This document shows, piece after piece, positions 3-13,967 of a stretch of 14,224 nucleotides of DNA. Numbering within the stretch: the stretch's first letter is position 1; every line of letters begins with the position of its first letter. Under the pieces are notes generated by a model that searched no databases, was not told the origin of the DNA, and saw only the letters and a program-made list of their open reading frames with translations. The DNA comes from Streptosporangiaceae bacterium. Lineage in GTDB: Bacteria > Actinomycetota > Actinomycetes > Streptosporangiales > Streptosporangiaceae. Location: the NCBI GenBank assembly GCA_025934635.1, contig JAICWX010000227.1, forward strand, positions 1 through 14,224. The letters are read 5' to 3'. The translations under genes and the position numbers were made by a program.

Positions 3-656
3 GAGGCCGAACGGCGACGCTGGACGGCGTACCGGCGCGACGCGGACCGCGAGCGCTTCCTGGCCGGCTGCGTGCTGGCCAAGGCGGCGCTGGCCCGGTC
101 GGCCGGCCTGCGCCCGGCCGACGTGCGCTTCGACCGGGCCTGCGGCCAGTGCGGCGAGCCGCACGGCAAGCCGTCCATGCGGGGCGGCACCCTGCAGCAC
201 TCGGTCGCGCACTCCGGTGACCTGGTCGCGGTGGCCGTGGCCCATCACCCGGTCGGGGTGGACGTCGAGCAGCTCGACGAGCGCCCGCATCCGCTGGGCG
301 GGGACGGCGACCCGGACGCGCTGGCCCGCCTCGTCATGTCCGGTACCGAGCAGTCCGCGCTCAGCGCCCTCCCCCCGCCCGACCGCCCCCGGGCCTTCCT
401 GGTCGCCTGGACCAGGAAGGAAGCCGTGACCAAGGCGACCGGCGACGGCCTGCGGGCCGCCTTCAGCGAGGTCGTGGTGGCGGCCGACGCCGGGCCGCCC
501 CGGCTGGTGTCCTGGCCCTACGAGCGCTCGCCGCGGGCGGTGACCCTGCTCGACCTGGACGCGGCGGCCGGGTACGTGGCGGCGCTCGCGGTCCTGGGTC
601 CCTGCCCGGCGGTGACGCCCCGGGACGGCTCGGCGCTCCTGGCCGGGCTGGCCTGA
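3..656 (+). CDS. 4'-phosphopantetheinyl transferase, Sfp type (5' end cut by window)
   Basis: The reading frame is open to the left edge of the window, so the N-terminus is missing. An internal GTG at 72 is not a convincing start because family-like sequence (ERFLAGCVLAKAALAR) lies partly upstream of it. Seen: the N-terminal-domain signature FDRACGQCGEPHGKP (about 129-173), the Mg/CoA-binding motif VGVDVE (252-269, Asp at 261-263 and Glu at 267-269), and the helix motif WTRKEAVTKATGDGL (from 408). These are the hallmarks of Sfp-type enzymes, which transfer the phosphopantetheine arm of CoA to a Ser of acyl- or peptidyl-carrier proteins of PKS, NRPS or fatty acid synthases. No carrier-protein or biosynthetic genes lie in the window, so the partner is unknown. 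It ends 63 bp before lutA and could be co-transcribed with it, but there is no functional link. Confidence 0.9.
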   Translation, partial: EAERRRWTAYRRDADRERFLAGCVLAKAALARSAGLRPADVRFDRACGQCGEPHGKPSMRGGTLQHSVAHSGDLVAVAVAHHPVGVDVEQLDERPHPLGGDGDPDALARLVMSGTEQSALSALPPPDRPRAFLVAWTRKEAVTKATGDGLRAAFSEVVVAADAGPPRLVSWPYERSPRAVTLLDLDAAAGYVAALAVLGPCPAVTPRDGSALLAGLA

Positions 657-719
657 CGCCCGGGGCGCCGTGCGGCAGGCCGGACGGGGTCTTGTACCGT
701 GGCGGGCGGAGGCGGCTTG

Positions 720-1457
720 ATGCGTATCGGCTTGTTCGTGACGTGCCTGACCGACACGCTGTACCCGGACACCGGCCGGGCCGTGGTGACGGTGCTGGAA
801 CGGCTCGGCCATCAGGTGGATTTCCCGGCGGCCCAGGCGTGCTGCGGCCAGATGCACTTCAACACCGGGTACCGGCGCGAGGCGGTGCCGATGGCGCGCG
901 GGTTCGCGGCCGCCTTCGGCGGCTACGAGGCGGTCGTCACCCCGTCGGCCTCGTGCGCCTCGATGATCCGGGAGTACTACCCGGCGCTGGCGGAGGAGGC
1001 GGGCGACCCGGGGCTGGCCCGGGCGGTGGCCGAGGTGGCGCCGCGCACCCACGAGCTGTCCGTGTTCCTGACCGGCGTGCTCGGGGTGACCGACGTGGGC
1101 GCCTACTTCCCGCACACGGTGACCTACCACCCGACCTGCCACGGGCTGCGGATGCTGAAGGTGGGCGACGCCCCGCTGCGGCTGCTGCGCGCGGTGCGCG
1201 GCCTGAAGCTGGCCGACCTGCCCGACGCCGAGGCGTGCTGCGGGTTCGGCGGCACCTTCGCGGTCAAGAACGCCGACGTGTCGGCGGCCATCTGCGCGGA
1301 CAAGGTGACGGCGGTCCGGCAGAGCGGGGCCGAGGTGCTGTGCGCGGCGGACAACTCGTGCCTGATGCACATCGGCGGGGCGCTGCAGCGGCAGCGATCC
1401 GGGGTGGCCGTCATGCACCTGGCCGAGATCCTGGCCCGGACCGAGGCGGCGCGCTGA
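720..1457 (+). CDS. lutA: LutA, L-lactate utilization Fe-S oxidoreductase subunit
   Basis: 245 aa, the usual size for LutA/YkgE. It carries two cysteine-rich CCG modules: QACCGQMHFNTGY (CC at residues 41-42) and ACCGFGGTFAVKN (CCG at 173-175), with further Cys at 79 and 140. These are the signature of heterodisulfide-reductase-type Fe-S subunits. With LutB and LutC it forms the cytoplasmic complex that oxidises L-lactate to pyruvate (established for Bacillus lutABC). Start: ATG 720 is preferred because GGAGG (708-712) sits 7 nt upstream; an in-frame GTG at 699 would add seven Gly-rich residues and lacks this spacing. A TANNNT-like hexamer (TACCGT, 695-700) could be a -10, but no clear -35 is seen. 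It overlaps lutB by 1 nt (TGATG). Confidence 0.93.
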   Translation: MRIGLFVTCLTDTLYPDTGRAVVTVLERLGHQVDFPAAQACCGQMHFNTGYRREAVPMARGFAAAFGGYEAVVTPSASCASMIREYYPALAEEAGDPGLARAVAEVAPRTHELSVFLTGVLGVTDVGAYFPHTVTYHPTCHGLRMLKVGDAPLRLLRAVRGLKLADLPDAEACCGFGGTFAVKNADVSAAICADKVTAVRQSGAEVLCAADNSCLMHIGGALQRQRSGVAVMHLAEILARTEAAR

Positions 1458-2905
1458 TGGCACTGGGAGAGATGCCGACCTACCTGGGCATGCCCTCGTT
1501 CCCGGTGGCGGCCAGGACCGCGGTGGCCGACTCGCAGCTGCGGGCCAACCTGACCCACGCCACCCACACGATCCGGGCCAAGCGGGCCGGCGCGGTCGCC
1601 GAGCTGGCCGACTGGGAGCAGCTCCGCCAGGCGGCCAAGGCGATCAAGGACCACACCCTGGCCCACCTGGACACCTACCTGCTCCGGCTGGAGGAGAACG
1701 TCACCCGGGCGGGCGGCCAGGTGCACTGGGCCCAGGACGCCGGCGAGGCCAACGCGATCGTGGCCGGCCTGGTCCGCGCGGCCGGCGCCGACGGCGTGGT
1801 CAAGGTGAAGTCGATGGCGACCCAGGAGACCGGGCTGAACGAGGCGCTGGCCGCCGACGGCATCAGCGCGCTGGAGACCGACCTGGCCGAGCTGATCGTC
1901 CAGCTCGGCCACGACCGCCCCAGCCACATCCTGGTGCCGGCCATCCACCGGAACCGGGCCGAGATCAGGGAGATCTTCCGCACCGAGATGCCGGACGCCC
2001 CGGCCCACCTGACCGACGACCCGCCGGCGCTGGCCGCCGCGGCGCGCTCGCACCTGCGCCAGGCGTTCCTGTCCGCGCGGGTCGGCGTGTCCGGCGCGAA
2101 CTTCGCCATCGCCGAGACCGGGTCGCTGGTCGTGGTCGAGTCCGAAGGCAACGGCCGGATGTGCGTGACGCTGCCGCGCACGCTGATCTCGGTGGTGGGG
2201 GTGGAGAAGATCCTGCCGTCGTGGCGGGACCTGGAGGTGTTCCTGGCCCTGCTGCCGCGGTCGTCCACCGCCGAGCGGATGAACCCGTACACCTCGACCT
2301 GGACCGGGATCACGCCGGGGGACGGTCCGGAGAACTTCCACCTGGTGCTGCTGGACAACGGCCGCACCTCGGCGCTGGCCGACCCGACCGGCCGCCAGGC
2401 GCTGCGCTGCATCAGGTGCTCGGCCTGCCTGAACGTGTGCCCGGTGTACGAACGGGCCGGCGGCCACGCCTACGGCTCGCCCTACCCGGGCCCGATCGGC
2501 GCGATCATCTCCCCGCAGCTGCGCGGCGTCACCGACCCGGTGGACGCGTCGCTGCCGTTCGCCTCCACCTTGTGCGGCGCCTGCTACGAGGTGTGCCCGG
2601 TCGCCATCAACATCCCGGAGGCCCTGGTCCACCTGCGCGCCAAGGTCGTCGACGCGAAACGAGAAAAGACCATTTCCGCCGAACGGGTGGCCTTCTCCCT
2701 CTCCGGCCGCGTCCTTCGCTCCCCTCGGCTGCTCGCCGCCGCCCAGCGGGCCGCCTCGGCCAGCCGCACCGTGGTCGCCCGGAAGGGCCGGATCAGGCGG
2801 CTGCCGCCGCCGCTGAGCGGCTGGACCGAGACCCGCGACGCCCCCGCCCCGCCGCCGGAGTCCTTCCGCGCCTGGTGGGCCAGGACCCGGGGCAACCGGT
2901 CATGA
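1457..2905 (+). CDS. lutB: LutB, L-lactate utilization LUD-domain Fe-S protein
   Basis: 482 aa, the expected LutB length. Residues about 65-300 form the LUD (DUF162) domain, with typical segments VKVKSMATQETGLNEAL, FAIAETGSLVVVESEGNGR and TLPRTLISVVGVEKI. The C-terminal part has a ferredoxin-like cluster motif CIRCSACLNVCPVY (Cys 318, 321, 324, 328) and a second motif CGACYEVCPVAI (Cys 373, 376, 380), so it probably carries two 4Fe-4S clusters that pass electrons from lactate. Its ATG overlaps the lutA stop, and its own stop overlaps the lutC start (ATGA), indicating translational coupling. The basic C-terminal tail (about 415-482) is less conserved. No lactate permease (LutP) or GntR-type LutR regulator is present in the window. 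Confidence 0.95.
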   Translation: MALGEMPTYLGMPSFPVAARTAVADSQLRANLTHATHTIRAKRAGAVAELADWEQLRQAAKAIKDHTLAHLDTYLLRLEENVTRAGGQVHWAQDAGEANAIVAGLVRAAGADGVVKVKSMATQETGLNEALAADGISALETDLAELIVQLGHDRPSHILVPAIHRNRAEIREIFRTEMPDAPAHLTDDPPALAAAARSHLRQAFLSARVGVSGANFAIAETGSLVVVESEGNGRMCVTLPRTLISVVGVEKILPSWRDLEVFLALLPRSSTAERMNPYTSTWTGITPGDGPENFHLVLLDNGRTSALADPTGRQALRCIRCSACLNVCPVYERAGGHAYGSPYPGPIGAIISPQLRGVTDPVDASLPFASTLCGACYEVCPVAINIPEALVHLRAKVVDAKREKTISAERVAFSLSGRVLRSPRLLAAAQRAASASRTVVARKGRIRRLPPPLSGWTETRDAPAPPPESFRAWWARTRGNRS

Positions 2906-3693
2906 GCGCCTCCGCCAGGGACCGGATCCTGTCCCGGATCCGCACCGCCAACCGCGCCGCCCGGGTCGACGGGGCGCCGGCCGGCCGCGGCCCGGCGGAC
3001 GGCCAGGCCGGCGCCGGCGCTGACCCCGGCGCCGACCCGGGTGCCGCCGCCGACGCGGCCTACGCGGCGCTGTCCCGCGACTACCTGCGGGCCCACCACG
3101 ACGCCGGGGCGAACGACATCACCGCCCTGTTCGCCGAACGCGCCGCCGACTACCGCGCCGTCGTCGAGCGTGTCCCGGAATCCGGCCTGCCCGCCGCTAT
3201 CGCCCGCGTGCTGTCGGCCCGGGCCGCGGCGGCCCCGGCCGCCCCGGCCCCGGCCGCCCCGGCCCCGGCCGCCGCCGCCCCGGCCGCCGCCGCCTTTGTC
3301 GTCCCGGACGGGCTCCCCGACGGCTGGCTGGCCGAATTGCCCGCCGGGATCACGCTGGCCCGCGACGAGCCCCCGCTGCCGCCGGCCGAGCTCGACCGGC
3401 TGGCGGGCGTCGTCACCGGCTGCGCGGCCGCCATCGCCGAGACCGGCACGATCATCCTGGACCACGGCCCGGCCCAGGGCCGCCGCGCGCTCACCCTGGT
3501 CCCCGACTTCCACCTGGTCGTCGTCCAGGCCGCCCAGATCGCGGCCGACCTGGCCGACGCGTTCGCCCGGCTCGACCCGGGCCGCCCGCACACCCTCATC
3601 TCCGGCCCCTCGGCCACCAGCGACATCGAGCTCATCCGGGTCGAAGGCGTGCACGGCCCCCGCAACCTGCACGTCCTGATCACCGAGGCCTGA
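2902..3693 (+). CDS. lutC: LutC, L-lactate utilization LUD-domain protein
   Basis: 263 aa. The conserved C-terminal half shows the LUD-domain signature of LutC/YkgG: CAAAIAETGTIILDHG, RRALTLVPDFHLVVV and GPSATSDIELIRVEGVHGP followed by LHVLI. It is the third subunit of the lactate oxidation complex. The ATG lies inside the lutB stop (ATGA overlap). There is no good independent Shine-Dalgarno, so translation probably depends on lutB. Oddities: a Gly/Ala/Asp-rich stretch near residues 30-52 and an Ala-Pro low-complexity insert at residues 108-131, between the N-terminal helical part and the catalytic fold. The insert probably acts as a flexible linker and makes this LutC slightly longer than typical homologues. 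Confidence 0.92.
   Translation: MSASARDRILSRIRTANRAARVDGAPAGRGPADGQAGAGADPGADPGAAADAAYAALSRDYLRAHHDAGANDITALFAERAADYRAVVERVPESGLPAAIARVLSARAAAAPAAPAPAAPAPAAAAPAAAAFVVPDGLPDGWLAELPAGITLARDEPPLPPAELDRLAGVVTGCAAAIAETGTIILDHGPAQGRRALTLVPDFHLVVVQAAQIAADLADAFARLDPGRPHTLISGPSATSDIELIRVEGVHGPRNLHVLITEA
3223..3294 (+). repeat. Ala-Pro codon repeat inside lutC
   Basis: About 24 consecutive codons are GCC/GCG or CCG/CCC, giving iterated AAPAAPAP-type peptide. The DNA is a slippery CCGGCCGCCC-type tandem repeat and is likely to vary in length between strains. It remains in frame and encodes a linker. Confidence 0.8.
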
Positions 3694-3734
3694 CGCCCCG
3701 GCATCCGCCCCCGTCACCGGCCACGGCGCCCGGT

Positions 3735-3798
3735 AACGACATCGATGCCCCATCCATGTCGTGGTGGCGGCATCGATGCTCCATCGATGTCGTTGTCA
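3735..3798. repeat. Tandem ATCGAT repeat bounded by a 13-bp inverted repeat
   Basis: AACGACATCGATG (3735-3747) is exactly inverted as CATCGATGTCGTT (3782-3794). Overlaid on this are two direct copies of CATCGATGCYCCATCSATGTCGT (3740-3762 and 3771-3793), 31 bp apart. The arrangement could be a paired operator or a terminator hairpin for lutABC, which ends 41 bp upstream. No T-run follows, so I favour a protein-binding site or extruded structure. The binding protein is not known. Confidence 0.7.
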
Positions 3799-3814
3799 GG
3801 TTCGCCGTGCCGCG

Positions 3815-3842
3815 CCAGGTGCGTACCTGGCGTACCTGGCGC
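3815..3842. repeat. CGTACCTGG direct repeat with hairpin potential
   Basis: CCAGGT-GCGT-ACCTGG forms a short hairpin at 3815-3830. CGTACCTGG occurs twice in tandem at 3822-3830 and 3831-3839. Function is unknown; this could be part of the lut terminator or a regulator site. Confidence 0.45.
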
Positions 3843-4101
3843 ACCGGGGGTATCGCCGGCCTCAGTATCGAGACGTGTTCCGCCGCTGAGCCGCACCCAC
3901 CGGGGGCAGTCGGGCATTGATCGGGCTTTGTCCGCGGTTGTGGTCGTTATAGCCGCCAGAACTGCCGGCAAATCGCGGATAAGTCCTCGCGAGGCGAGGC
4001 GGGGCGGGGCGTGAGCCGCGGTCGCGGGCGCCGCTGGGAGGCGGCCGGACGGTGATCGCTGCGGGCGAACGCGGAGCGGAAACAAAACTGGGCTCTTTTT
4101 T

Positions 4102-4122
4102 CTTGAGTGTGTATGACTCAAG
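4102..4122 (+). promoter_or_regulatory. HAIR operator for heat-shock repressor HspR
   Basis: The sequence is CTTGAGT (4102-4108), seven bases, then ACTCAAG (4116-4122). This matches the HAIR consensus CTTGAGT-N7-ACTCAAG exactly. HspR is known to repress dnaK, clpB and lon in Streptomyces through HAIR sites, with DnaK as co-repressor. The site ends 16 bp before the lon ATG, between promoter region and ribosome binding site, so it should repress lon at normal temperature and release on heat shock. Confidence 0.93.
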
Positions 4123-4132
4123 CTTTGGAGGC

Positions 4133-4154
4133 CACTCAATGAGTGAAACACTCA
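4133..4154 (+). promoter_or_regulatory. Alternating CACTCA/TGAGTG boxes over the lon start codon
   Basis: CACTCA (4133-4138), one base, TGAGTG (4140-4145), AAA, CACTCA (4149-4154) make two overlapping perfect inverted repeats centred on the ATG at 4139. The core ACTCA/TGAGT is shared with the HAIR half-sites just upstream. They could be accessory HspR half-sites or mutually exclusive mRNA hairpins. The codons they overlap (MSETLT) are normal Lon N-terminus, so partial coincidence is possible. Confidence 0.45.
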
Positions 4155-6550
4155 CGCTGCCGGTGCTGCCCCTCGATGACGAGGTGGTGCTGCCGGGGAT
4201 GGTGGTGCCGCTGGAGACATCGCAGACGGAGGTTGGCGCCGCGATCGACGCGGCCCGGATGCCGTCCCGGCAGGTTCCCGGCATGCGTTCGGAGATAAAG
4301 GCACGGGTGCTGCTCGTGCCGCGACTGGCTGACCGCGGGCTCGCGGGCGTCGGCACCCTCGCCGTGGTGGAGCAGGTCGGGCGGCTGCCCGGCGGGCAGC
4401 CCGGCGCGGTGGTGCGCGGCACGTCCCGAGTCAAGATCGGCTCGGGGACCACGGGTCCCGGTGCGGCGCTGTGGGTGGAAGGCACCGTGGTCGAGGAGAC
4501 CGGGGCCGGACCGCGGGCCGAAGAACTCGCCCAGCAGTACAAGTCCCTGATCACCAGCATGCTGCAGCAGCGCGGCGCCTGGCAGGTCATCGACGCGATC
4601 CAGCAGCTCACCGACGCGTCCGCGATCGCGGACCGGGCGGGCTACTCGTCTTACCTCTCGACCACCCAGAAGCTGCAGCTGCTCGAGACCTCTGACCTGG
4701 TCGAGCGCCTGGAGCTGGTGGTCGGCTGGGCCAAGGACCAGCTGGCCGAGCTGGAAGTGGCCGAGTCCATCCGCAAGGACGTCTCCGAGGGCATGGAGAA
4801 GCAGCAGAAGGAATTCCTGCTGCGCCAGCAGCTCTCCGCCGTCCGCAAGGAGCTCAACGAGCTGACCGGCGGGGGCAAGGGCGAGACCGAGGAGGACGAC
4901 TACCGCAAGCGCGTCGAGGACGCCGACCTGCCGGAGAAGGTCCGCGAGGCCGCGATGCGCGAGGTCGACAAGCTCGAGCGGACCTCGGACCAGTCGCCCG
5001 AAGTCGGCTGGATCAGGACCTGGCTCGACACCGTCCTCGACATCCCGTGGAACGAGCGGACCGAGGACGCCTACGACATCGCCGGCGCGCGGCGGATCCT
5101 CGATGAGGACCACACCGGGCTCGATGACGTCAAGGACCGGATCATCGAGTACCTGGCCGTGCGCAAGCGGCGCAGCGACCGCGGCCTCGGGGTCGTCGGC
5201 GGCCGGCGTTCCGGTGCCGTGCTCGCCCTGGTCGGCCCGCCCGGCGTCGGCAAGACGTCGCTCGGCGAGTCGGTCGCGCGGGCCATGGACCGCAAGTTCG
5301 TCCGGGTCGCGCTGGGCGGCGTGCGGGACGAGGCGGAGATCCGCGGTCACCGGCGTACCTACGTCGGCGCGCTGCCCGGCCGCATCGTCCGTGCCATCCG
5401 CGAGGCGGGCACGATGAACCCGGTCGTGCTGCTGGACGAGGTCGACAAGATCGGCAGCGACTTCCGGGGCGACCCGGCGGCCGCGCTGCTCGAGGTGCTC
5501 GACCCGGCGCAGAACCACACCTTCCGCGACCACTACCTCGAGGTCGACCTCGACCTGTCCGACGTGGTGTTCCTGGCCACGGCGAACGTGCTCGACTCGA
5601 TCCCCGGGCCGCTGATCGACCGGATGGAGCTGGTTCAGCTCGACGGCTACACCGAGGACGAGAAGGTCGCCATCGGCCGGGACCACCTGCTGCCGCGGCA
5701 GCTGTCCAAGGCGGGCCTGAACGCCGAAGAGGTCACGCTGACCGACGACGCGCTGCGGCTCATCGCGGCCGAGTACACCCGCGAGGCGGGCGTCCGGTCG
5801 CTGGAGCGGGCTATCGCCCGGGTGCTGCGCAAGGTCACCGCCAAGGAGGCCCTGGAGGAGGGCACGCTGCCGGCTACGGTCAGCGCCGCCAACCTCAAGG
5901 ACTACCTCGGCCGGCCCCGCTTCACCCCGGAGACCAGGCTCACGTCGGGCGACCGCCGCACGGCGGTGCCGGGCGTGGCAACCGGCCTGGCAGTGACCGG
6001 TGCGGGCGGCGACGTGCTGTACATCGAGGCGTCCCTCGCGGATGCCGAGACCGGCGACACCGGGGTCACGCTCACCGGCCAGCTCGGTGACGTGATGAAG
6101 GAATCGGCCCGGATCGCGCTGTCCTACCTGCGCTCCCACGGGGCCGAGCTCGGCCTGCCGGTGGGCGACCTCAAGGACCGCGGCGTGCACGTGCACGTGC
6201 CGGCCGGCGCGGTGCCCAAGGACGGCCCGAGTGCGGGCGTCACCATGACCACCGCGCTCGCCTCGCTGCTGTCCGGCCGCCCCGTGCGGTCCGACGTGGC
6301 GATGACCGGTGAGGTCTCGCTGACCGGGCGGGTGCTGCCCATCGGCGGCGTCAAGCAGAAGCTGCTCGCCGCCCACCGGGCCGGGATCACTACCGTGCTG
6401 ATCCCGCAGCGGAACGAGCCGGACCTGGATGACGTCCCGGCCGAGGTGCTCGAGAAGCTGGACGTGCACACCATGGCCGATGTCCGGGACGTGCTCGAGC
6501 TCGCGCTCGAGCCCGCCGAGATCCCGCAGGCGGCCGGAGTGGCCGCCTGA
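4139..6550 (+). CDS. lon: ATP-dependent Lon protease
   Basis: 803 aa, the usual length for bacterial LonA. Order: N-terminal substrate-binding LON domain (about 7-205), coiled-coil linker rich in charged residues (about 210-310), AAA+ module with Walker A GPPGVGKT (366-373) and Walker [10 protein letters not shown] (Asp433-Glu434), sensor region, then the S16 protease domain with catalytic Ser698 in PKDGPSAG and Lys741 in GGVKQK. All key residues are intact. It is a cytoplasmic hexamer that degrades misfolded and short-lived regulatory proteins. Start: ATG 4139 has GGAGG (4127-4131) 7 nt upstream and gives the typical Lon N-terminus; upstream in-frame starts would put the HspR operator inside the gene. 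Regulation by HspR through the HAIR site is very likely. Downstream it converges on the 6572-8776 gene with only 21 bp between them. Confidence 0.97.
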
Positions 6551-6571
6551 CGGGTAACGGCCCTGGCCGGC

Positions 6572-8776
6572 CTAGCTGGCGCTGGCGCCGGGTTCGTCGT
6601 CCTGCGGGACGGCGCCCGGCGCCTCCGGCTCGCCCGGATGGACGGCGGCCGGGAACACGTCCGTGCCGGACAGATCCCAGATGAAGCCAGGCTGGGCAGC
6701 CCCGGCCGATCCCGCATTGGCTGAACCGGCCCCGGTTGAGCCAGCTCCCGTTGAGCCGGCCCCAGCTGAGCCAGCACTGAGAACCAGGCCGGCCGCGCGG
6801 GATGGCACGGTGAAGTCGGGCGCCTGCGGCGGCGCGTAGTCGAGGGGAACCGGGGCCGCCGCGAAGCCGAGGCTCGGCCGGGTCGGCAGCTGCACCCGCG
6901 TCGGGAAGTCGGGGAAGTCGTCGCCCTCGCGGGCCAGTGGCCGCGGCGGGAAGTCCGGGTCCGGCGACGTGCCGAACTCGAACGGCGCGGGCAGCATGGC
7001 GTCGGGCGGCATGGCGGGCAGGTCGGCCATGTCACCGGGTACCCGGATGCCGGGACCCGGATCCAGCGGGAGGGCGCTGTTCGCCGTCATCGGCAGCGAC
7101 CCGAACGTGCGCCCGGGCTCCGCCGCGGGCGCCCACGGCGGCCCGGGGTAGCCGTCGGCCAGCCCCTTGACCGCCTTGGCGGCCTTGGGGGCCGGGGTCA
7201 TGGCCGGGCGGAACGGCGCGCCCGGAGCGTGCGGCCCGCTGGCCGAAGCCTGCATCTCACCCAGGCCACCGCCGGTAAAGCCCCCGGTCGCCGTCCAGCT
7301 GGCGGGCGGTCCCGGCGGCGACTCAGGGACCCCAGAGAACCCCAGGGCCGTGGGGGGCGGCTGCACCCGGCTCAGCCCGCTGAGCCCGGCGATGGCCAGC
7401 GGTGACCCGGATGCCAGCTCGGGCTTGCGGTGCTCGTGCAGGCCGCGGGGCCGGGCCCGGCTCGACGCGGCCTCCGCCGCCGCCCGGGCCTTTTCCCGCC
7501 GGGAGCGCATGGCCAGGAGCAGCACGACGAGCAGCGCGATCAGCCCGGCCAGGCCCGCCACCGCGTAACGGACCAGCGAACTGGCCAGGGAGCCGTCGCT
7601 CGCCTGGTGCGCCGCGGCCGTCGACAGCCGCTGGGGCTGGTGCGACGGGACCGGCGCGCCGGCCGCGGCCGGGGTGGCAGGCTGGCTGATCCCGTTGAGG
7701 CTCGCGGCCAGGCTGACCGCCCGGGCCGCGTCGATGGTGCCGAGCCCGGCGCCCGGGATGCTGGTGCGGGCCGGGGTCACGCTCCCGGCCAGCACCTGAC
7801 TCACCTGGGCGCCGGTGAGGTGCGGGAACCTGGACAAGATGAGCGCGGCCACGCCGGACACGATGCCGCTGGACACGCTGGTGGAACTGATCGGCGCGTA
7901 GCCGCCGGACGGCGACGCGGCGGTCAGGCTGACGCCGGGCGCGGTCAGCGTCACGAAGGAATGCCTGCTGCTGAACGAGGCGACCTGCCCGTTCCGGGCG
8001 ACGGCCCCCACCGCGATGACGCCGGGGTAGGCGGCCGGGTAGTCCACCAGGCCGGCCCCTTCGCCGTCGTCGCCCGCCGGGGCGATCAGGATCACGTCCT
8101 TGCTCAGCGCGTTCGCCACCGCCGCCTGCTCGGCCGGGCTGCCGCCGGCCGCGGCCGGGTTGCCCTGGCCGGTCACGCCGCCCGTGCCCGGGTCCATCGG
8201 CAGCTCGATGATCCGGGCGCCGTGGTCGACCGCGTAGGTGATGCCCGCGGCGATGGCCCCGGGCAGCTTCCCGGCGATGGCCTGGTCGGCGTTCAGCGGG
8301 TCGTTGAATTCCAGCGAGACCCGGATGGAGAGGATCTTCGCCGCGGGGGCGACGCCGAGGATGCCGTCGGCGTGGCCGGTGCCGTGCCCGTGCCCGGCGA
8401 TGATCCCGGCCACCGCGGTCCCGTTGACGCCCCAGAACGGCCCGCCCGCGGTCCGGCCCGAGCCGGACAGATCCGGTCCGGTCGTCACCGACCCGGCCAG
8501 GTCGGGATGCCGGGGGTCGACGCCGGTGCCGAGCACGGCCACGGTGACCCCGGCCCCCTGAGTGGACGGCCAGGCCTGGGTCACGTGCAGGCGGCCCAGC
8601 CACCATTCCTGGGCCTGCACCGGGTCACTCGCCAGCACCACCTCACCCGCCCGCACGGCGTCACCGGCGCGCGCGTCACCGGCGGCTGCGGCCGAGGCCG
8701 GCCAGGAAACAGCGACGATGGCGGCCAGGCCTGCGGCAACCGGGATCAGGGTGCTGCGAAGCGATGGGTGTGACAC
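6572..8776 (-). CDS. Membrane-anchored subtilisin-like (S8) protein, probable pseudoprotease
   Basis: 734 aa from GTG 8776. Seen in order: signal peptide (residues 1-32, Arg7, hydrophobic 10-25, ASAAAA), subtilisin-fold domain (about 55-360), low-complexity linker, TM helix (about 402-423) followed by basic MRSRREKAR, then a ~300-residue Pro/Gly/Ala-rich tail predicted cytoplasmic. This plan resembles mycosins (MycP) of type VII secretion, but no ESX genes are here. Catalytic positions are altered: VAVLGTGVD has Gly83 for the Asp of VAVx[13 protein letters not shown] has Asn118 for the His of HGT; APAGDDG has Asp236 for the oxyanion Asn of AAGN. Only Ser300 in STSVSSG remains, in a degraded GTSMAxP box. 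It is thus probably non-proteolytic, perhaps a binding or sensory protein (inference). The start is chosen for the signal peptide; GGAGG at 8791-8795 is rather far (14 nt). A start at 9010 would bury the signal peptide and overlap the DUF3263 control region. Confidence 0.85.
6723..6782 (-). repeat. Four 15-bp repeats encoding GAGST-type pentapeptides
   Basis: Units at 6723-6737, 6738-6752, 6753-6767 and 6768-6782 each read GAGCCRGCNCCNGTT-like on the plus strand. They encode repeated Gly-Ala-Gly-Ser-Thr / Asn-Ala-Gly-Ser-Ala pentapeptides in the cytoplasmic tail of the pseudoprotease. The repeat is probably length-variable between strains. Confidence 0.75.
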
Positions 8777-8955
8777 TTGGTCAGATATCTCCTCCGGGCT
8801 GGCCGAGCAGGCCTGCGGTAGCGAAGTTTCCGACCCGGCCTCTGTAATCGTGCCATGCGGCCGCCGCCCGTGGAATGCGTCACCGGCGAATTGTTTGGCC
8901 GATGGGCGCCAGCGCAATCCGGGCACCGGCCTCACCTGGGTACACCCGCCCCCGG

Positions 8956-8986
8956 CGGGTACGGTCAGCTGTCGGGTACGGTCAGC
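8956..8986. repeat. Two direct 14-bp repeats upstream of the DUF3263-otsB pair
   Basis: CGGGTACGGTCAGC occurs at 8956-8969 and again at 8973-8986, 17 bp apart. They end 24 bp before the DUF3263 start, within the 234-bp divergent region shared with the S8 gene. The spacing and place suggest a regulator-binding site, or overlap with the promoter (TACGGT matches TANNNT). No regulator is known to me for this motif. Nothing else is recognisable in 8777-8955. Confidence 0.6.
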
Positions 8987-9010
8987 AGTAACCGGGCCGG
9001 AGGAGGTCAT

Positions 9011-9256
9011 ATGTCCGGGTTGTCAGAGGCTGACTTGCGGATCCTGGCGTTTGAGCGGCGCGGCTGGCGCTCGTCGGGGGTGAAGGAGCAGGCCATCGCC
9101 GACGTCCTCGACATGTCGGCTACCCGGTACTACCAGCTGCTGAACGAGCTCATCGACCGGCCGGAAGCGCTCGCCGCCGACCCGGTGCTGGTCAAGCGGC
9201 TGCAGGCGCAGCGGGCCCGGCGCCAGCGGATGCGGTCGCCGCGGAAGGCCAGGTGA
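9011..9256 (+). CDS. DUF3263 family protein (small helix-turn-helix-like)
   Basis: 81 aa, with the DUF3263 pattern: LSEADLRILAFERRGWR, VKEQAIADVLDMSATRYYQL, then LIDRPEALAADPVLVKRL and an Arg/Lys-rich C-terminus (RARRQRMRSPRKAR). The middle segment looks like a helix-turn-helix similar to sigma-factor region 4, so DNA binding is plausible, but the family has no established function. The start ATG 9011 has AGGAGG at 9001-9006 (4-nt gap, or GGAGG at 8999-9003). Its TGA overlaps the GTG of otsB (GTGA), so the two are translationally coupled, which may tie it to trehalose control. Confidence 0.88.
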   Translation: MSGLSEADLRILAFERRGWRSSGVKEQAIADVLDMSATRYYQLLNELIDRPEALAADPVLVKRLQAQRARRQRMRSPRKAR

Positions 9257-10074
9257 CGCTGCCCCGGCCGCGCACCGCGGCCGGCCAGGCCGGCCTGGCC
9301 GCGCTGCTGGCGGACCCGCGGCACGCGCTGATCGCGGCGGACTTCGACGGCACGCTGTCCCCGATCGTCGCCCGCCCGGGCGACGCCCGGGCCCATTCAG
9401 GCGCGGTGCCCGCGCTGACCGCGCTGGCCGGGGTGGTCGGCACGGTCGCGGTCATCACCGGCCGGCCCGCGGCGGAGGCGGTGACCCTGGGCGGCCTCGC
9501 GGCCATCCCGGGACTGGTGGTGATCGGCCACTACGGCTGGCAGCGCTGGCAGGACGGCCAGCTGGCCGACGCGCCGCCCCCGGCCGCGGTGGCGGCCGCC
9601 CGCGCGGCCCTGCCCGGCGTGCTCCGCGCGGCGGGCGCCCCCGACGGCACTTGGGTCGAGGACAAGGGGCACGCGATGGCCGTGCACACCCGCGGCGCGG
9701 CCAGCCCGGAGGATGCGCTGGCCCGCCTCCGCGGCCCGCTCGGCGACCTCGCCGAACGCCTGGGGCTGGCCGCGGAATCCGGCCGCCTGGTCATCGAGCT
9801 GCGCCCGCCGGGCGTGGACAAAGGGACCGCGCTGACCGGTCTGGCCGGCGAGCGGGCCGCCCGTTCGGTCCTGTTCTGCGGGGATGACCTCGGGGACCTG
9901 CCCGCCTTCGCCGCGGTGCGCGCGCTGCGGGCCGGCGGCGTCCCCGGCTGCGCCGTGGCCAGCGCCAGCGCGGAATCGCCGCGGGTGGCCGACGCGGCCG
10001 ACCTGGTGGTGGCCGGACCCGGCGGGGTGGTAGACCTGCTCACGGCGCTGGCCGGCCAGCTCACGAAGAATTGA
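9253..10074 (+). CDS. otsB: Trehalose-6-phosphate phosphatase OtsB
   Basis: 273 aa HAD-superfamily phosphatase of the trehalose-phosphatase family. Motif I is DFDGTLSPI (nucleophile Asp30, acid/base Asp32), motif II lies in AVITGR (66-71), the family segment is VEDKGHAMAVH (135-145) with ELRPPGVDKGTAL (Lys190), and motif III is FCGDDLGDLPAF (Asp211, Asp212, Asp215). It dephosphorylates trehalose-6-phosphate to trehalose in the cytoplasm. It starts at GTG 9253, overlapping the DUF3263 stop by 4 nt (GTGA), and faces otsA with a 28-bp gap, so the two trehalose genes are convergent rather than in one operon. Confidence 0.95.
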   Translation: MTLPRPRTAAGQAGLAALLADPRHALIAADFDGTLSPIVARPGDARAHSGAVPALTALAGVVGTVAVITGRPAAEAVTLGGLAAIPGLVVIGHYGWQRWQDGQLADAPPPAAVAAARAALPGVLRAAGAPDGTWVEDKGHAMAVHTRGAASPEDALARLRGPLGDLAERLGLAAESGRLVIELRPPGVDKGTALTGLAGERAARSVLFCGDDLGDLPAFAAVRALRAGGVPGCAVASASAESPRVADAADLVVAGPGGVVDLLTALAGQLTKN

Positions 10075-10102
10075 ACCGAACGAGTGAGCTGCTACGCCCC
10101 GG

Positions 10103-11686
10103 TCAGGACCCGAGCGACGCGAGCTGGTCGCCCAGCCACCGGGCCGGCGGATCCGCCGCGGCCGTGGCGGCGAGCGCGGCGCTGCGCCGCTGGCGCTCGG
10201 CCGCGGGCATGGCCAGCGCCTGGTGCAGGGCCTCGGCCGTCTCGGTGATGTCGAACGGGTTGACCAGCAGGGCGTCGGCGGCCAGGGTCGCGGCCGCGCC
10301 GGCCTCGCGGGAGAGCACCAGCGCGCAGCCGCGCTCGGAGAGCACCGGGCCCTCCTGGGCGACCAGGTTCATGCCGTCCCTGATCGGGTTGACGAGCAGC
10401 ACGTCGGCCAGCGAGCACGCGGCCAGCGACCGCGGGTAGTCGTCCTTCACCTCCAGGATCAGCGGGTTCCAGTCCGCGGTGCCGAACTCCCCGGTGATCT
10501 CGAGGGCGAGCTGCCGCACCCGTTCGGTGTAGGCGCGGTACTCCGCCAGGTCGGAGCGGGACGGGTAGGCGAAGGCCAGGTGGACGACCCGGCCCCGCCA
10601 TTGCGGCCGGGTCGTGAGCAGCTCGCGGTACGCGACCAGGCCGCGGACGATGTTCTTGGACAGCTCGGTGCGGTCGACCCGGACGATCAGCTGGCGGTCG
10701 CCCGCGGCCTGGCGCAGGATGCCCGCGTGGGCCTGGACGTCCCCGGCCCGGGCGCGCTCCCGCAGGGCGGAGGCGTCCACGCCGAGCGGGTGGACGGCGA
10801 CCTCGGTGACGTGCCCCCGGTAGGTCACCCACCCGGCCGGCCCGCCGGGCCGGTCCGCGCCGCCCCGCTCGCCGTCAGCCCGCTCTCCGTCCGCAGGCCC
10901 GGCATCGGCCCGTACGACGTCGGCCCGCACCACATCGGCACCGAGCAGCGCGGCGCAGCAGTCCATGAACGCCGCGGCCCATCGCCCGGCGTGGAAGCCG
11001 GCCCGGTCCGCGCCGAGGATGCCGTCGAGCAGCGCCCGGGCGATGTCGGCCGGGAGCATCCGGTAGTAGTCCGGCGTTGCCCAGGGCGTATGGCAGAAGT
11101 ACCCCACGCCTGCCCGGCGGGCGGCGTCGCCCAGCCGCTCCCGCAGCAGCCGCGGGACCAGGCACAGGTGGTAGTCCTGGATCAGGATCCGCAGGCGGCG
11201 GGAGGCAGGCCGGTCCTGGCCGGCCTGCCGGGTTCCCGCCTCCTGGACCCCCGCCTCCTGGGCCAGGGCGTCGGCGAACATCTCGTTGTAGGCGACATAG
11301 GACTCCCAGTCGCGGCGGAACCCGGCCCCGAACTGCGGCTGGTCGGGGGTGTCGAAAAGCTGGTGGAGCAGGAACCACAGGGTCGAGTTGGCCATGTTGT
11401 TGTAGGCGCGGCCGAAGATGCCCGGCGGGATGTCGAGCATCCGCACCGGGATGTCGGCCCGCAGGCCCTCGCCGGGATCGCCGCCCTGCCGGGCGACCAC
11501 GCGGTCCGCGTCGCTGAGGGCGGCGCAGATCCAGGTGGCGCTGGACCCGGGGCCGAGTGCGGCCAGCCCGTCGGTAACCCCGGCGATCATGCCGCCGCCG
11601 CCCCGCCGCCCGGTCAGCGAGCCGTCGGCACCGAACTGGTACGAGATCGGGCCGCGGTTGGACGCCACGAGCACTCGCTGGTTCAT
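10103..11686 (-). CDS. otsA: Trehalose-6-phosphate synthase, GT20 family
   Basis: 527 aa GT20 glycosyltransferase that joins UDP-glucose and glucose-6-phosphate into trehalose-6-phosphate. Seen: N-terminal VASNRGPISY and glycine loop GRRGGGGMIAGV, QDYHLCLVPRLLR, YFCHTPWATPDYYRML (in place of HIPFP of the E. coli enzyme; this is the form I associate with actinobacteria), VRVDRTELSKNIVRGL with nucleotide-binding Arg/Lys, AFAYPSR, and NPIRDGMNLVAQEGPVLSE. A low-complexity Ala/Asp/Gly insert follows GADVVRADVVRADAG, before WVTYRGHVTEV; it is probably a surface loop. Its distance from classical OtsA leaves room for a different acceptor, but otsB next door supports trehalose. The start ATG 11686 lacks a Shine-Dalgarno, so the transcript may be leaderless. 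Confidence 0.9.
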   Translation of the reverse strand: MNQRVLVASNRGPISYQFGADGSLTGRRGGGGMIAGVTDGLAALGPGSSATWICAALSDADRVVARQGGDPGEGLRADIPVRMLDIPPGIFGRAYNNMANSTLWFLLHQLFDTPDQPQFGAGFRRDWESYVAYNEMFADALAQEAGVQEAGTRQAGQDRPASRRLRILIQDYHLCLVPRLLRERLGDAARRAGVGYFCHTPWATPDYYRMLPADIARALLDGILGADRAGFHAGRWAAAFMDCCAALLGADVVRADVVRADAGPADGERADGERGGADRPGGPAGWVTYRGHVTEVAVHPLGVDASALRERARAGDVQAHAGILRQAAGDRQLIVRVDRTELSKNIVRGLVAYRELLTTRPQWRGRVVHLAFAYPSRSDLAEYRAYTERVRQLALEITGEFGTADWNPLILEVKDDYPRSLAACSLADVLLVNPIRDGMNLVAQEGPVLSERGCALVLSREAGAAATLAADALLVNPFDITETAEALHQALAMPAAERQRRSAALAATAAADPPARWLGDQLASLGS

Positions 11687-11772: not shown

Positions 11773-11910
11773 CTCATCCAGAGGGGTGGAGGGATCGGCC
11801 CTGCGAAGCCCCGGCAACCTAGCGCGCACGCATGCCCGTCGTAAACGGCGAGGCGCGCGGCATGGTGCCAACTCCGACCCGTGGTCAAGGTGACCACTGG
11901 GAAAGATGGG
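11773..11910 (+). promoter_or_regulatory. SAM-I (S-box) riboswitch aptamer
   Basis: The S-box core is clear: GAGGGATCGGCCCTGCGAAG, CCCCGGCAACC and GGTGCCAACTCC. Pairings I can trace: P1 CTCATC (11773-11778) with GATGGG (11905-11910, one G-U pair); P2 GGGGT (11783-11787) with GCCCC (11808-11812); P3 built on GCGCGC arms around 11822-11859; the pseudoknot UCGG (11795-11798) with CCGA (11874-11877); P4 GTGGTCA (11881-11887) with TGACCAC (11891-11897). The P1 3' strand runs straight into the Shine-Dalgarno of the next gene, with no terminator hairpin between, so SAM binding most likely blocks translation. It should lower expression of 11927-13195 when SAM is plentiful. Confidence 0.95.
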
Positions 11911-11926
11911 AAGGAAGTCCTCGCCG

Positions 11927-13195
11927 GTGACCACAGCAACGACACGAACAGCCCCCGCGTCCTCCGGATTCGGCTACGCCACCGGGCTCTCCTGCCGCGA
12001 ATGCGGCCACGTCTACGAGCTCGGCCCGTACTACGCCTGCGAAGAGTGCTTCGGCCCGCTGGAAGTCCGCTACGACTACCCGGCGCTGACCCGGGCGGAC
12101 ATCGAAGCCGGCCCGCCGAACATGTGGCGCTACGCGCCGCTGCTCCCGGTCCCGCCGGACATCGCGTCCCGGCCCACCACCGAGCCCGGCTACACCAAGC
12201 TGATCCGCGCCGACAACCTCGCCCACGCGCTGGGCATGCGCCGCCTGTGGGTCAAGGACGACCGGGGCAACCCGACGCACTCGTTCAAGGACCGGGTGGT
12301 CGCGGTGGCCCTGTCCGCCGCCACCGAGATGGGCTTCAAGGTGCTGGCCTGCCCGTCCACCGGAAACCTGGCCAACGCGGTGGCTGCCGCGGCGGCGCGG
12401 GCCGGGGTGCGCTCGGTGGTCATGGTGCCCGCCGACCTGGAACTGCAGAAGATCATCACCACCTCGGTCTACGGCGGCACGTTCATCACCGTGGACGGCA
12501 CCTACGACGACGTGAACCGGCTGGCCTCCGAGCTGGCCGGCGAGCACCCGGACTGGGCCTTCGTCAACGTCAACGTCCGGCCCTACTACGCCGAGGGGTC
12601 CAAGACGCTCGGCTTCGAGATCGCCGAGCAGCTCGGGTGGCGGCTCCCCGAGCAGGTCGTGGTGCCGATCGCGTCGGGCGCGCAGCTGGTGAAGGTGGAC
12701 AAGGGCTTCACCGAGCTGACCTCGCTCGGACTGGTGCCGCCGGCCCCGTGGCGGGTGTTCGGGGCGCAGGCGACCGGCTGCTCGCCGGTGTCGGCCGCCT
12801 TCGCGGCCGGCCACGACGTGGTCCGGCCGGTCCGCCCGGACACCATCGCCAAGTCGCTGGCCATCGGCAACCCGGCCGACGGTCCCTACGTGCTCGACGT
12901 GGTGCGCCGCACCGGCGGGTCGATCGCCGACGTGAGCGACGACGAGGTGGTCGACTCCATCCGGCTGCTCGCGGCCACCGAGGGCATCTTCGGCGAGACC
13001 GCCGGCGGCGTCACCCTGGGCGTGCTGCGCAAGCTGCTCAAGGAGGGCCGGCTCGACCCGGACGCCGAGACCGTGATCATCAACTCCGGCGACGGGCTCA
13101 AGACCCTGGACGCGGTCGCCGATGCGGTGGACGTGCCCGACCCGATCAGGCCCACCCTCGACGCATTCACCGAGCGGTATCCGGCGGTCGGCTAG
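11927..13195 (+). CDS. thrC: Threonine-synthase-family PLP enzyme, probable homocysteine-forming enzyme of methionine synthesis
   Basis: 422 aa, fold-type II PLP enzyme of the threonine synthase family. N-terminal zinc-ribbon-like motif CRECG...YACEEC (Cys 23, 26, 38, 41); PLP lysine Lys121 in GNPTHSFKDR; phosphate cup PSTGNLAN (143-150). Start: GTG 11927, because AAGGA (11911-11915) precedes it; an in-frame ATG at 11906 lies inside the riboswitch P1 stem and has no ribosome site. Usual annotation would be threonine synthase (O-phosphohomoserine to threonine). Context argues otherwise: a SAM-I riboswitch in front and a CysO-like sulfur carrier behind suggest O-phosphohomoserine plus protein thiocarboxylate to homocysteine, as I recall for MetM in Streptomyces. 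Late motifs also differ from classical ThrC: GETAGGV where EPASA is usual and NSGDGLKTL for TGHGLKD. Family assignment is firm; substrate is inferred. Confidence 0.9.
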   Translation: MTTATTRTAPASSGFGYATGLSCRECGHVYELGPYYACEECFGPLEVRYDYPALTRADIEAGPPNMWRYAPLLPVPPDIASRPTTEPGYTKLIRADNLAHALGMRRLWVKDDRGNPTHSFKDRVVAVALSAATEMGFKVLACPSTGNLANAVAAAAARAGVRSVVMVPADLELQKIITTSVYGGTFITVDGTYDDVNRLASELAGEHPDWAFVNVNVRPYYAEGSKTLGFEIAEQLGWRLPEQVVVPIASGAQLVKVDKGFTELTSLGLVPPAPWRVFGAQATGCSPVSAAFAAGHDVVRPVRPDTIAKSLAIGNPADGPYVLDVVRRTGGSIADVSDDEVVDSIRLLAATEGIFGETAGGVTLGVLRKLLKEGRLDPDAETVIINSGDGLKTLDAVADAVDVPDPIRPTLDAFTERYPAVG

Positions 13196-13209
13196 CGCGC
13201 CCGGTAACG

Positions 13210-13248
13210 CGGACCTTCTCGAGCACGGACTTTCTCCCGAGCACGGAC
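13210..13248. repeat. Imperfect CGGAC-YTTCTC-GAGCA repeats before the sulfur-carrier gene
   Basis: CGGAC occurs at 13210, 13226 and 13244, each followed by a C/T-rich stretch; GAGCACGGAC is exact at 13221-13230 and 13239-13248. They fill the gap between the PLP enzyme and the carrier gene. The pyrimidine-rich repeats could be an untranslated spacer or a binding site; they may also be a decayed duplication. Confidence 0.5.
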
Positions 13249-13273
13249 CTCTCTCTCACACGGAGGCAATGTC

Positions 13274-13585
13274 GTGGCTGTGCAGGTGCGCATCCCCACC
13301 ATCCTGCGGACTTACACCGACGGCGCGGCGGAGGTGACCGCGATGGAGGGGACCCTCCGCGAGGTCATCGCCGGCCTGGACGCCGCCTATCCCGGGCTGG
13401 GCGGCCGGATCCTTGACGACACCGGGAAACTGCGTCGTTTTGTTAACGTCTACGTCGGCGACGAGGATGTGCGGTTCGCGCAGGGCCTCGACACGCCGGT
13501 ACCAGCCGGGGAACGGGTTTCCGTCATCCCCGCAGTGGCTGGCGGGGCGCCCGTGACGGCAGAGAACACGGGCCAGATGACGTGA
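13274..13585 (+). CDS. CysO/MoaD/ThiS-like sulfur carrier protein with C-terminal extension
   Basis: 103 aa ubiquitin-like beta-grasp protein. The segments RIPTILRTYTDG, KLRRFVNVYVGDEDVRF and VSVIPAVAGG closely resemble mycobacterial CysO, whose C-terminal Gly-Gly is adenylated and converted to a thiocarboxylate that hands sulfur to the PLP enzyme CysM. Here Gly90-Gly91 is followed by 12 extra residues (APVTAENTGQMT), so a protease must trim it before it can carry sulfur, as for QbsE-type carriers. Start GTG 13274 has GGAGG (13262-13266) 7 nt upstream; an ATG at 13269 is out of frame. It lies 78 bp after the ThrC-like gene on the same strand with no terminator between, so it is probably co-transcribed under the SAM riboswitch. 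Neither a MoeB-type activating enzyme nor a Mec/JAMM protease is in the window. Confidence 0.9.
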   Translation: MAVQVRIPTILRTYTDGAAEVTAMEGTLREVIAGLDAAYPGLGGRILDDTGKLRRFVNVYVGDEDVRFAQGLDTPVPAGERVSVIPAVAGGAPVTAENTGQMT

Positions 13586-13662
13586 TTGGTGGGTAAGTGG
13601 CGGCAGGCACCCTCCGCACAAGGTAAGGTCAGTTCCGGTCGCCGTCGGACGGGGACGGGTTT

Positions 13663-13729
13663 TGCGTTAGCGCATTTAACCGCCGCCGCCGTTGTCGATC
13701 GACGGGTTCCGCGGTTGCAAGGGCGGAAC
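13663..13729 (+). other. Structured leader of the cold-shock gene
   Basis: The 178-bp gap before the cold-shock gene contains a small hairpin TGCG-TTAG-CGCA (13663-13674), a palindrome GTCGATCGAC (13694-13703), and a 7-bp stem GTTCCGC (13706-13712) with GCGGAAC (13723-13729). A TANNNT hexamer, TAAGGT (13624-13629), could be its -10, giving a leader of about 125 nt. Long folded leaders are typical of csp mRNAs, where they act as temperature-sensitive elements. No function is shown here. Confidence 0.4.
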
Positions 13730-13763
13730 TCGAGGCCCGAGCGAAGTTAGGGAGTTGTTTGGA

Positions 13764-13967
13764 ATGGCTCAGGGCACCGTCAAGTGGTTTAACCCGGACA
13801 AGGGATACGGCTTCATTGCCGTCGACGGTGGCAAGGACGTTTTCGTCCACTTCTCCGCGATCCAGTCGGATGGGTACCGCACCCTCGAAGAGGGACAGCG
13901 GGTCGAGTTCGAGATCACGCAGAGCGACCGGGGCGCGCAGGCCGACAAGGTTATCGTGGTCTCTTAG
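13764..13967 (+). CDS. cspA: Cold-shock protein, CspA family
   Basis: 67 aa single cold-shock domain, the standard length. It begins [20 protein letters not shown], containing RNP1 (KGYGFIAV, about 13-20), followed by RNP2 VFVHFSAI (about 26-33); the end is [20 protein letters not shown]. It is a five-stranded beta-barrel that binds single-stranded RNA/DNA and acts as an RNA chaperone in the cytoplasm. The start ATG 13764 has AGGGAG (13749-13754) 9 nt upstream. It is likely monocistronic, with its own leader and a strong terminator. It belongs to the SC-type Csps common in actinomycetes, several of which are constitutive rather than cold-induced. Confidence 0.97.

Follow-up and report, generated by a model that had tools for sequence, protein, structure and literature searches.

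The window, a 14,224-nucleotide stretch of DNA from a Streptosporangiaceae bacterium, carries a SAM-I (S-box) aptamer, a threonine-synthase-family gene and a sulfur-carrier gene in succession on the same strand; the two genes are referred to here as metM and metO (Table 1). In cmscan, the aptamer aligned with the full RF00162 model (positions 1–108) at 64.6 bits, against a gathering threshold of 44.4 bits, and was the single Rfam match in the window at that threshold. The MetM protein matched PF00291 (PALP, 229.8 bits) and TIGR00260 (thrC, 265.7 bits; cut-off 167.1), and the carrier reading frame, 13274–13585, matched PF02597 (ThiS), the ThiS/MoaD-type family. The 3′ neighbor of metO is a cold-shock gene, and Mec, the JAMM peptidase encoded beside cysO, is not found beside the window carrier. 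MetM and MetO were described in Streptomyces albulus by Hasebe et al. (2024, AEM 90:e01247-24), as cited in PMC12172450. PMC12172450 names MetM as a homocysteine synthase of Streptomyces, and reports that S. albulus metM has a SAM riboswitch upstream and prevents methionine auxotrophy.

Table 1. Features of the window, with positions, strand and basis of assignment.
Feature	Position	Strand	Basis
Phosphopantetheinyl transferase, LutABC-like lactate utilization cluster, Lon, subtilase	within 72–11686		
DUF3263/NapA-like, trehalose phosphatase, trehalose-phosphate synthase	within 72–11686		
SAM-I (S-box) aptamer, RF00162	11771–11912	+	cmscan, 64.6 bits, E 2.2e-13
Aptamer P1 3′ strand GATGGG (11905–11910), continuing into the Shine-Dalgarno-like stretch GGGAAGGAAG; probable translational switch	11905–11918	+	motif
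metM, PLP enzyme of the threonine-synthase family, N-terminal four-cysteine motif; predicted to make homocysteine from O-phosphohomoserine	GTG 11927–13195	+	PF00291, TIGR00260
metO core, ubiquitin-fold sulfur carrier ending PAVAGG	13274–13546	+	PF02597, MetO clade, fold
12-residue MetO C-terminal tail past Gly-Gly, and stop codon	13547–13585	+	pLDDT <50
Conserved DNA from metO to the cold-shock gene, overlapping the tail end; probably promoter and leader of the cold-shock gene	13571–13690	+	11-locus alignment
Cold-shock protein gene	13764–13967	+	profile match

A genome collection contained at least 593 matching stretches, of which we kept the best 80 (64–96% identity); since these are the closest relatives, conservation among them speaks for the clade and not for all ThrC-like proteins. 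Among the best 80 of at least 593, the nearest named record was JAJKHX010000158.1, a MAG from Hopland soil that bears the label Nocardiopsis and whose MetM is 96% identical; the next were MAGs labelled Streptosporangiaceae, Actinomycetota or Actinobacteria. Judged by these neighbors, the host is probably an uncultured soil actinobacterium of Streptosporangiaceae type. Streptomyces anulatus (L199) was also present, with an S-box directly upstream. The first-pass annotation had placed an S-box directly before a threonine-synthase-family gene and proposed a survey of the three elements. The aptamer placement is borne out well beyond the window: cmscan detected RF00162 immediately 5′ of metM in 80 of 80 of these best matches (a regular expression caught 71), and the survey found a carrier adjoining metM in 67 of the 80, at least one of the 13 carrier-less loci (L188) ending at a contig edge. 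One MAG labelled Spirochaetaceae (L158) has an S-box together with a MetM that shares 73% identity with the actinobacterial protein; this record is probably mislabelled or contaminated.

We compared the interval between aptamer and start codon in 81 loci, namely the window and the best 80 of at least 593 matches. Both P1 strands were detected by motif in 80 loci, the metM start lay 9–21 nt past P1 in 80 (unresolved in one), and the Shine-Dalgarno-like stretch overlapped or adjoined P1. This arrangement suggests that S-box control of metM is probably translational, with P1 abutting the Shine-Dalgarno sequence: P1 stabilized by SAM would mask that sequence and turn translation off. The GTG start at 11927, already chosen in the first-pass annotation, is preferred over an ATG at 11906, because the ATG falls within the P1 3′ strand and the GTG, 16 nt past P1, fits the conserved spacing. 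An inverted repeat, GAG...CCTC, lies between P1 and the start codon in 54 of the 81 loci and is absent in the window, so we claim no expression-platform hairpin there. The aptamer was absent from the free-standing MFE fold of the leader (z 0.75) and was recovered by the covariance model. A sigma-70 promoter search gave zero matches, and terminator matches occurred only at chance level.

We then aligned 36 MetM rows (35 relatives and the window) with 11 classical ThrC rows, a comparison that contained no S. albulus row and left out L009 and the contig-cut L071. The PLP lysine in SFKDR is retained in MetM. At 50 positions the two groups differed, each position being constant in at least 35 of 36 MetM rows and at least 10 of 11 ThrC rows. 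Numbered by alignment with Thermus thermophilus ThrC, Ser155 and Arg160, which we take to be part of the substrate-phosphate site, were replaced by Asn and Tyr in 36/36 MetM rows, and were Ser and Arg in 11/11 ThrC rows; the window protein thus carries Asn and Tyr, unlike the classical ThrC of related genomes. The four cysteines of the N-terminal motif were invariant across 15 MetM rows; that alignment, like the relative search of the genome collection, used 14 of 35 full MetM loci, the pattern having missed the other 21. One further ThrC-like protein, L073 (in genome G036), was placed in neither group: it is 40% identical, has TFKAR instead of SFKDR and mixes MetM and ThrC residues, and neither an S-box before the gene nor a carrier within the fetched stretch was detected. 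AlphaFold modeled MetM poorly, with a mean pLDDT of 67.9, and this model was set aside; a 592-residue apparent MetM–MetO fusion (P0010) was rejected as a frameshift product whose linker reads the MetO start out of frame.

The TIGR00260 score above cut-off could also be read as the signature of a second threonine synthase, or of a mixed-activity enzyme, put under SAM control so that the aspartate pathway stays balanced. There is a precedent in Microcystis, where, according to PMC12172450, a metO-like gene of the sulfur-carrier family (47.25%) adjoins thrC, and the ThrC protein, 51.6% identical to S. albulus MetM and described there as having no SAM riboswitch, acts in vitro as a threonine synthase and deaminase, homocysteine formation not being demonstrated there. 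The Microcystis activity counts against reading every homologue as MetM. For the clade studied here, we consider a second threonine synthase or a mixed-activity enzyme quite unlikely: SAM control and a neighboring sulfur carrier would be unexpected for threonine synthesis, and the 50 fixed or nearly fixed differences include the Ser155 and Arg160 positions.

The genomes of relatives bear on the same point. Our set comprised 41 genomes, the nearest MAG (G001, 74% complete) and 40 relatives, and MetM was defined in it as the TIGR00260 copy following a same-strand S-box. TIGR00260 matches were found in all 41, with an S-box directly before one copy in 36. Elsewhere in 35 of these 36 genomes lay a second, higher-scoring copy, usually beside a ThrB match, and this coexistence of a classical ThrC argues against the threonine-synthase reading. 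The second classical thrC that the first-pass annotation had suggested looking for is therefore present in 35 of the 36 relatives with S-box and metM; G001, which is 74% complete, yielded neither a classical ThrC nor any ThrB match above the cut-off, a point in favor of that alternative, and in this strain metM may therefore be the sole thrC-type gene, as in the case that the first-pass annotation named as contrary to its reading.

MetX (E 1e-90 or better) was present in 12 of the 41 genomes (9 of the 36 MetM genomes and 3 of the 5 others), and thus missing in 27 of the 36, where fragmented MAGs can hide genes in assembly gaps; its absence likewise speaks against a second threonine synthase. 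Weaker TIGR01392 matches (134–149 bits, in G001, G011, G014 and G024) were not counted, and the 500-bit cut-off was reached by no genome or control. MetA was found in none of the 41 genomes, its control being detected in 8 of 14. The bypass of acetyl-homoserine proposed in the first-pass annotation thus fits the absence of metX from 27 of 36 genomes and of metA from all 41, but may not hold in the genus of G001, which has a contig-cut MetX with 83–88% identity to the G015 and G011 copies and a PF01053 match, likewise truncated at a contig end, that may be MetY. No MetX was found in G002, of the same genus and 91% complete. Since MetX occurs in the same-genus G001, the classical route may coexist with MetM/MetO there, and MetM/MetO may be redundant.

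Across 98 genomes drawn from the whole class (thresholds E 1e-100 or better for MetM, E 1e-60 or better for MetX), MetM was present in 72 and MetX in 49: 29 genomes had both, 43 only MetM, 20 only MetX and 6 neither, so that 92 of 98 had at least one. MetM occurred in 43 of 49 MetX-less genomes and 29 of 49 MetX genomes (Fisher p 0.0025; p 0.0016 for the 80 better genomes), p-values that are only a guide because the genomes are related and not independent. The MetM/MetO route thus appears widespread in actinobacteria, and SAM-switched in the relatives examined. A ThiF-family protein was found in 40 of the 41 genomes, G020 having no match and G021 a weaker one.

We next considered the carrier. 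AlphaFold modeled MetO with block means of pLDDT 80–96 for residues 1–90 and values below 50 for residues 90–103. Its best solved relatives, in sequence and in fold, are CysO of Mycobacterium tuberculosis (3dwg) and of Amycolatopsis (4n6e), with 3dwg_C as top Foldseek match and 53% identity to the nearest solved structure, CysO. CysO passes sulfur to a fold-type II PLP enzyme. This resemblance would favor the view that the carrier is CysO of the cysteine route, lying beside metM by chance, which we nevertheless regard as extremely improbable. In a tree of 33 MetO carriers (adjacent to metM, including that of the window) and 39 CysO-type carriers (near Mec; 4 of the 39 loci were missed by the carrier regular expression and recovered by tblastn), the window carrier fell in a MetO clade cleanly separated from CysO with support of 100/100, which refutes that view. 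The relatives moreover have a separate CysO-clade gene near Mec, and adjacency of carrier and metM is conserved, extending to 32 of the 36 genomes with S-box and metM. Its place in this tree identifies the window carrier as MetO, which is paralogous to CysO. Of the earlier description as a CysO-like carrier on the same strand, the ubiquitin-fold carrier at 13274–13585 stands and the affiliation changes from CysO to MetO.

Not every MetM genome has an adjacent MetO. Thirteen named genomes have MetM but lack an adjacent carrier (among the best 80 of at least 593 matches); we searched eight of these, together with two controls. Nocardioides daejeonensis (G128) and N. alcanivorans (G130) each had exactly one carrier at E 0.001, and Pseudonocardia, Lentzea and Allokutzneria had one close and one distant carrier each. 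All six full-length close carriers of the MetO-less genomes, those of both Nocardioides species included, grouped with CysO in the tree, from which distant carriers and fragments were left out, and are neighbors of Mec; two MAGs (G132 and G133) gave only fragments. The controls, S. anulatus and Streptosporangium saharense, had one carrier per clade, S. saharense with two more distant matches; in S. anulatus, Mec was not seen within the 3.3 kb fetched around the CysO-type gene. At 38 of 39 CysO loci, a weak tblastn match to MetM (E 1e-6 or better) marks a putative CysM. A Pfam search with two open reading frames of L081 gave zero matches. A third carrier type (L213 and L215), ending in ILPSVAGG or IIPSVAGG and 39–42% identical, was observed in the Lentzea (L178) and Allokutzneria (L192) genomes.

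The existence of MetM genomes lacking a MetO-clade carrier would fit an enzyme that uses O-phosphohomoserine with free sulfide or another donor, the carrier belonging to another pathway. We hold this to be quite improbable: MetO adjoins metM in the large majority of the best 80 of at least 593 loci and forms its own clade, and the MetO-less genomes placed in the tree keep a CysO-clade carrier. Hasebe et al., in their Streptomyces report, are also said to name MetO thiocarboxylate as the sulfur donor and O-phosphohomoserine as the substrate, with metO downstream of metM. Given the CysO-clade carriers retained by these genomes, CysO may serve as the sulfur source of MetM in lineages without MetO. 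Literature searches, whose coverage was incomplete, found no paper on MetM working with CysO. Taken together, the S-box, the ThrC paralogue, the MetO-clade carrier and the second thrC agree with the MetM/MetO reading of the first-pass annotation, and make it highly likely that the window locus is a MetM/MetO operon that would produce homocysteine from O-phosphohomoserine and MetO-borne sulfur.

As translated, the Gly-Gly of the window MetO is internal, being followed by 12 residues, absent from the first-pass description, and then a stop codon. Among 32 genomes with adjacent MetO, the tail had 0 residues in 20, one in 9 and two in 1, with 10 in G015 and 15 in G001; among 67 named loci (of the best 80 of at least 593), it had 0 in 54, one in 8 and two in 2, and the remaining three, near the window, had 9 (L126), 10 (L122) and 15 (L121), the last two apparently being the loci of G015 and G001. 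CysO-type carriers (35 of 39 parsed) had tails mostly of 0 or 2 residues, with a maximum of 21. Among the best 120 database relatives of the window carrier, 68 had a 12-residue tail, 10 had none, 41 had other lengths and one was unparsed. Mean pairwise identity in these 68 was 51% for the tail versus 88% for the core. In L124 and L125, DNA resembling the tail end lies beyond a stop codon; in other relatives the tail DNA is read in another frame (for example, G001) or the reading frame continues much further. From identity, post-stop DNA and frame changes, the tail does not look as if it were under selection as protein.

The DNA around and after the tail end (13571–13650) contains GTAANGTC, conserved in 11 of 11 aligned loci, which probably reflects the promoter of the cold-shock gene. 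A conserved leader directly before that gene (13690–13763) was aligned over 14 loci including the window. It had no Rfam match even at E 10, and its consensus fold was weak: double-sided changes affected 2 of 19 pairs, and covariation contributed almost nothing to the energy; it is possibly an undescribed regulatory RNA.

As established for CysO, the thiocarboxylate is made on a free Gly-Gly end. Because of this requirement, the MetO tail would have to be cut, and by analogy trimming is probably performed by Mec; HcyD and QbsD are precedents for tail cutting. Mec (PF14464) was found in 39 of 41 genomes, including 32 of 32 with adjacent MetO. In 38 genomes no more than about 410 bp separated it from the CysO match; in G039 the distance was about 730 bp. 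It was the single match in 34 of the 39; G033 had a second strong match, and G030, G039, G036 and G025 had weaker extras. In the nearest genome, G001, Mec is the sole Prok-JAB match. We put at about even the chances of a broader proposal, in which MetO of this lineage is a pro-carrier that arose by stop-codon loss, its tail being no more than translated DNA from ahead of the next gene, and is trimmed by Mec, and CysO feeds both cysteine and homocysteine synthesis in MetM lineages without MetO. If true, one carrier-plus-peptidase hub would be common to both sulfur amino acids, and homocysteine synthesis in a soil lineage would depend on trimming by Mec. Literature searches with incomplete coverage found no paper on the MetO carrier tail.

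From these elements we infer the following mechanism. When SAM is low, P1 of the S-box would open and free the Shine-Dalgarno sequence, and MetM and MetO would be made. The MetO precursor would be trimmed after Gly-Gly, most likely by Mec, and the trimmed carrier charged to the thiocarboxylate by a MoeZ-type protein. MetM would take O-phosphohomoserine from the threonine pathway, eliminate phosphate and put the carrier sulfur on the gamma carbon, rather than water on the beta carbon, yielding homocysteine, perhaps via a MetO–homocysteine adduct also released by Mec. Standard models and databases give genes of the metM type the name 'threonine synthase'. New here are the contact between P1 and Shine-Dalgarno sequence, the MetO tail and the occurrence of a CysO-clade carrier alone in some MetM genomes; the locus yields testable predictions on carrier maturation and its sharing with cysteine synthesis.

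Compared with classical ThrC, MetM has the same family, PLP lysine and presumably substrate, O-phosphohomoserine, but differs in its 50 fixed or nearly fixed changes, its S-box control and its four-cysteine motif, the first two Cys columns of which are gaps in 10 of 11 classical ThrC rows. The window shares with CysO/CysM/Mec cysteine synthesis a ubiquitin-fold carrier with a PAVAGG end, whereas its carrier is of another clade, paired with another PLP enzyme and not beside Mec. HcyS/HcyD/HcyF of Wolinella leads to homocysteine by way of a protein thiocarboxylate and includes a metallopeptidase that cuts off a tail; it differs in using O-acetylhomoserine and a MetY-type fold-type I enzyme. The closest counterpart is MetM/MetO of Streptomyces, which likewise combines a ThrC-like MetM, an upstream SAM riboswitch and a MetO carrier; in S. 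anulatus, whose homologue is 64% identical, S-box, MetM and carrier have the same layout, but a single Cys follows Gly-Gly where the window lineage has its 12-residue tail.
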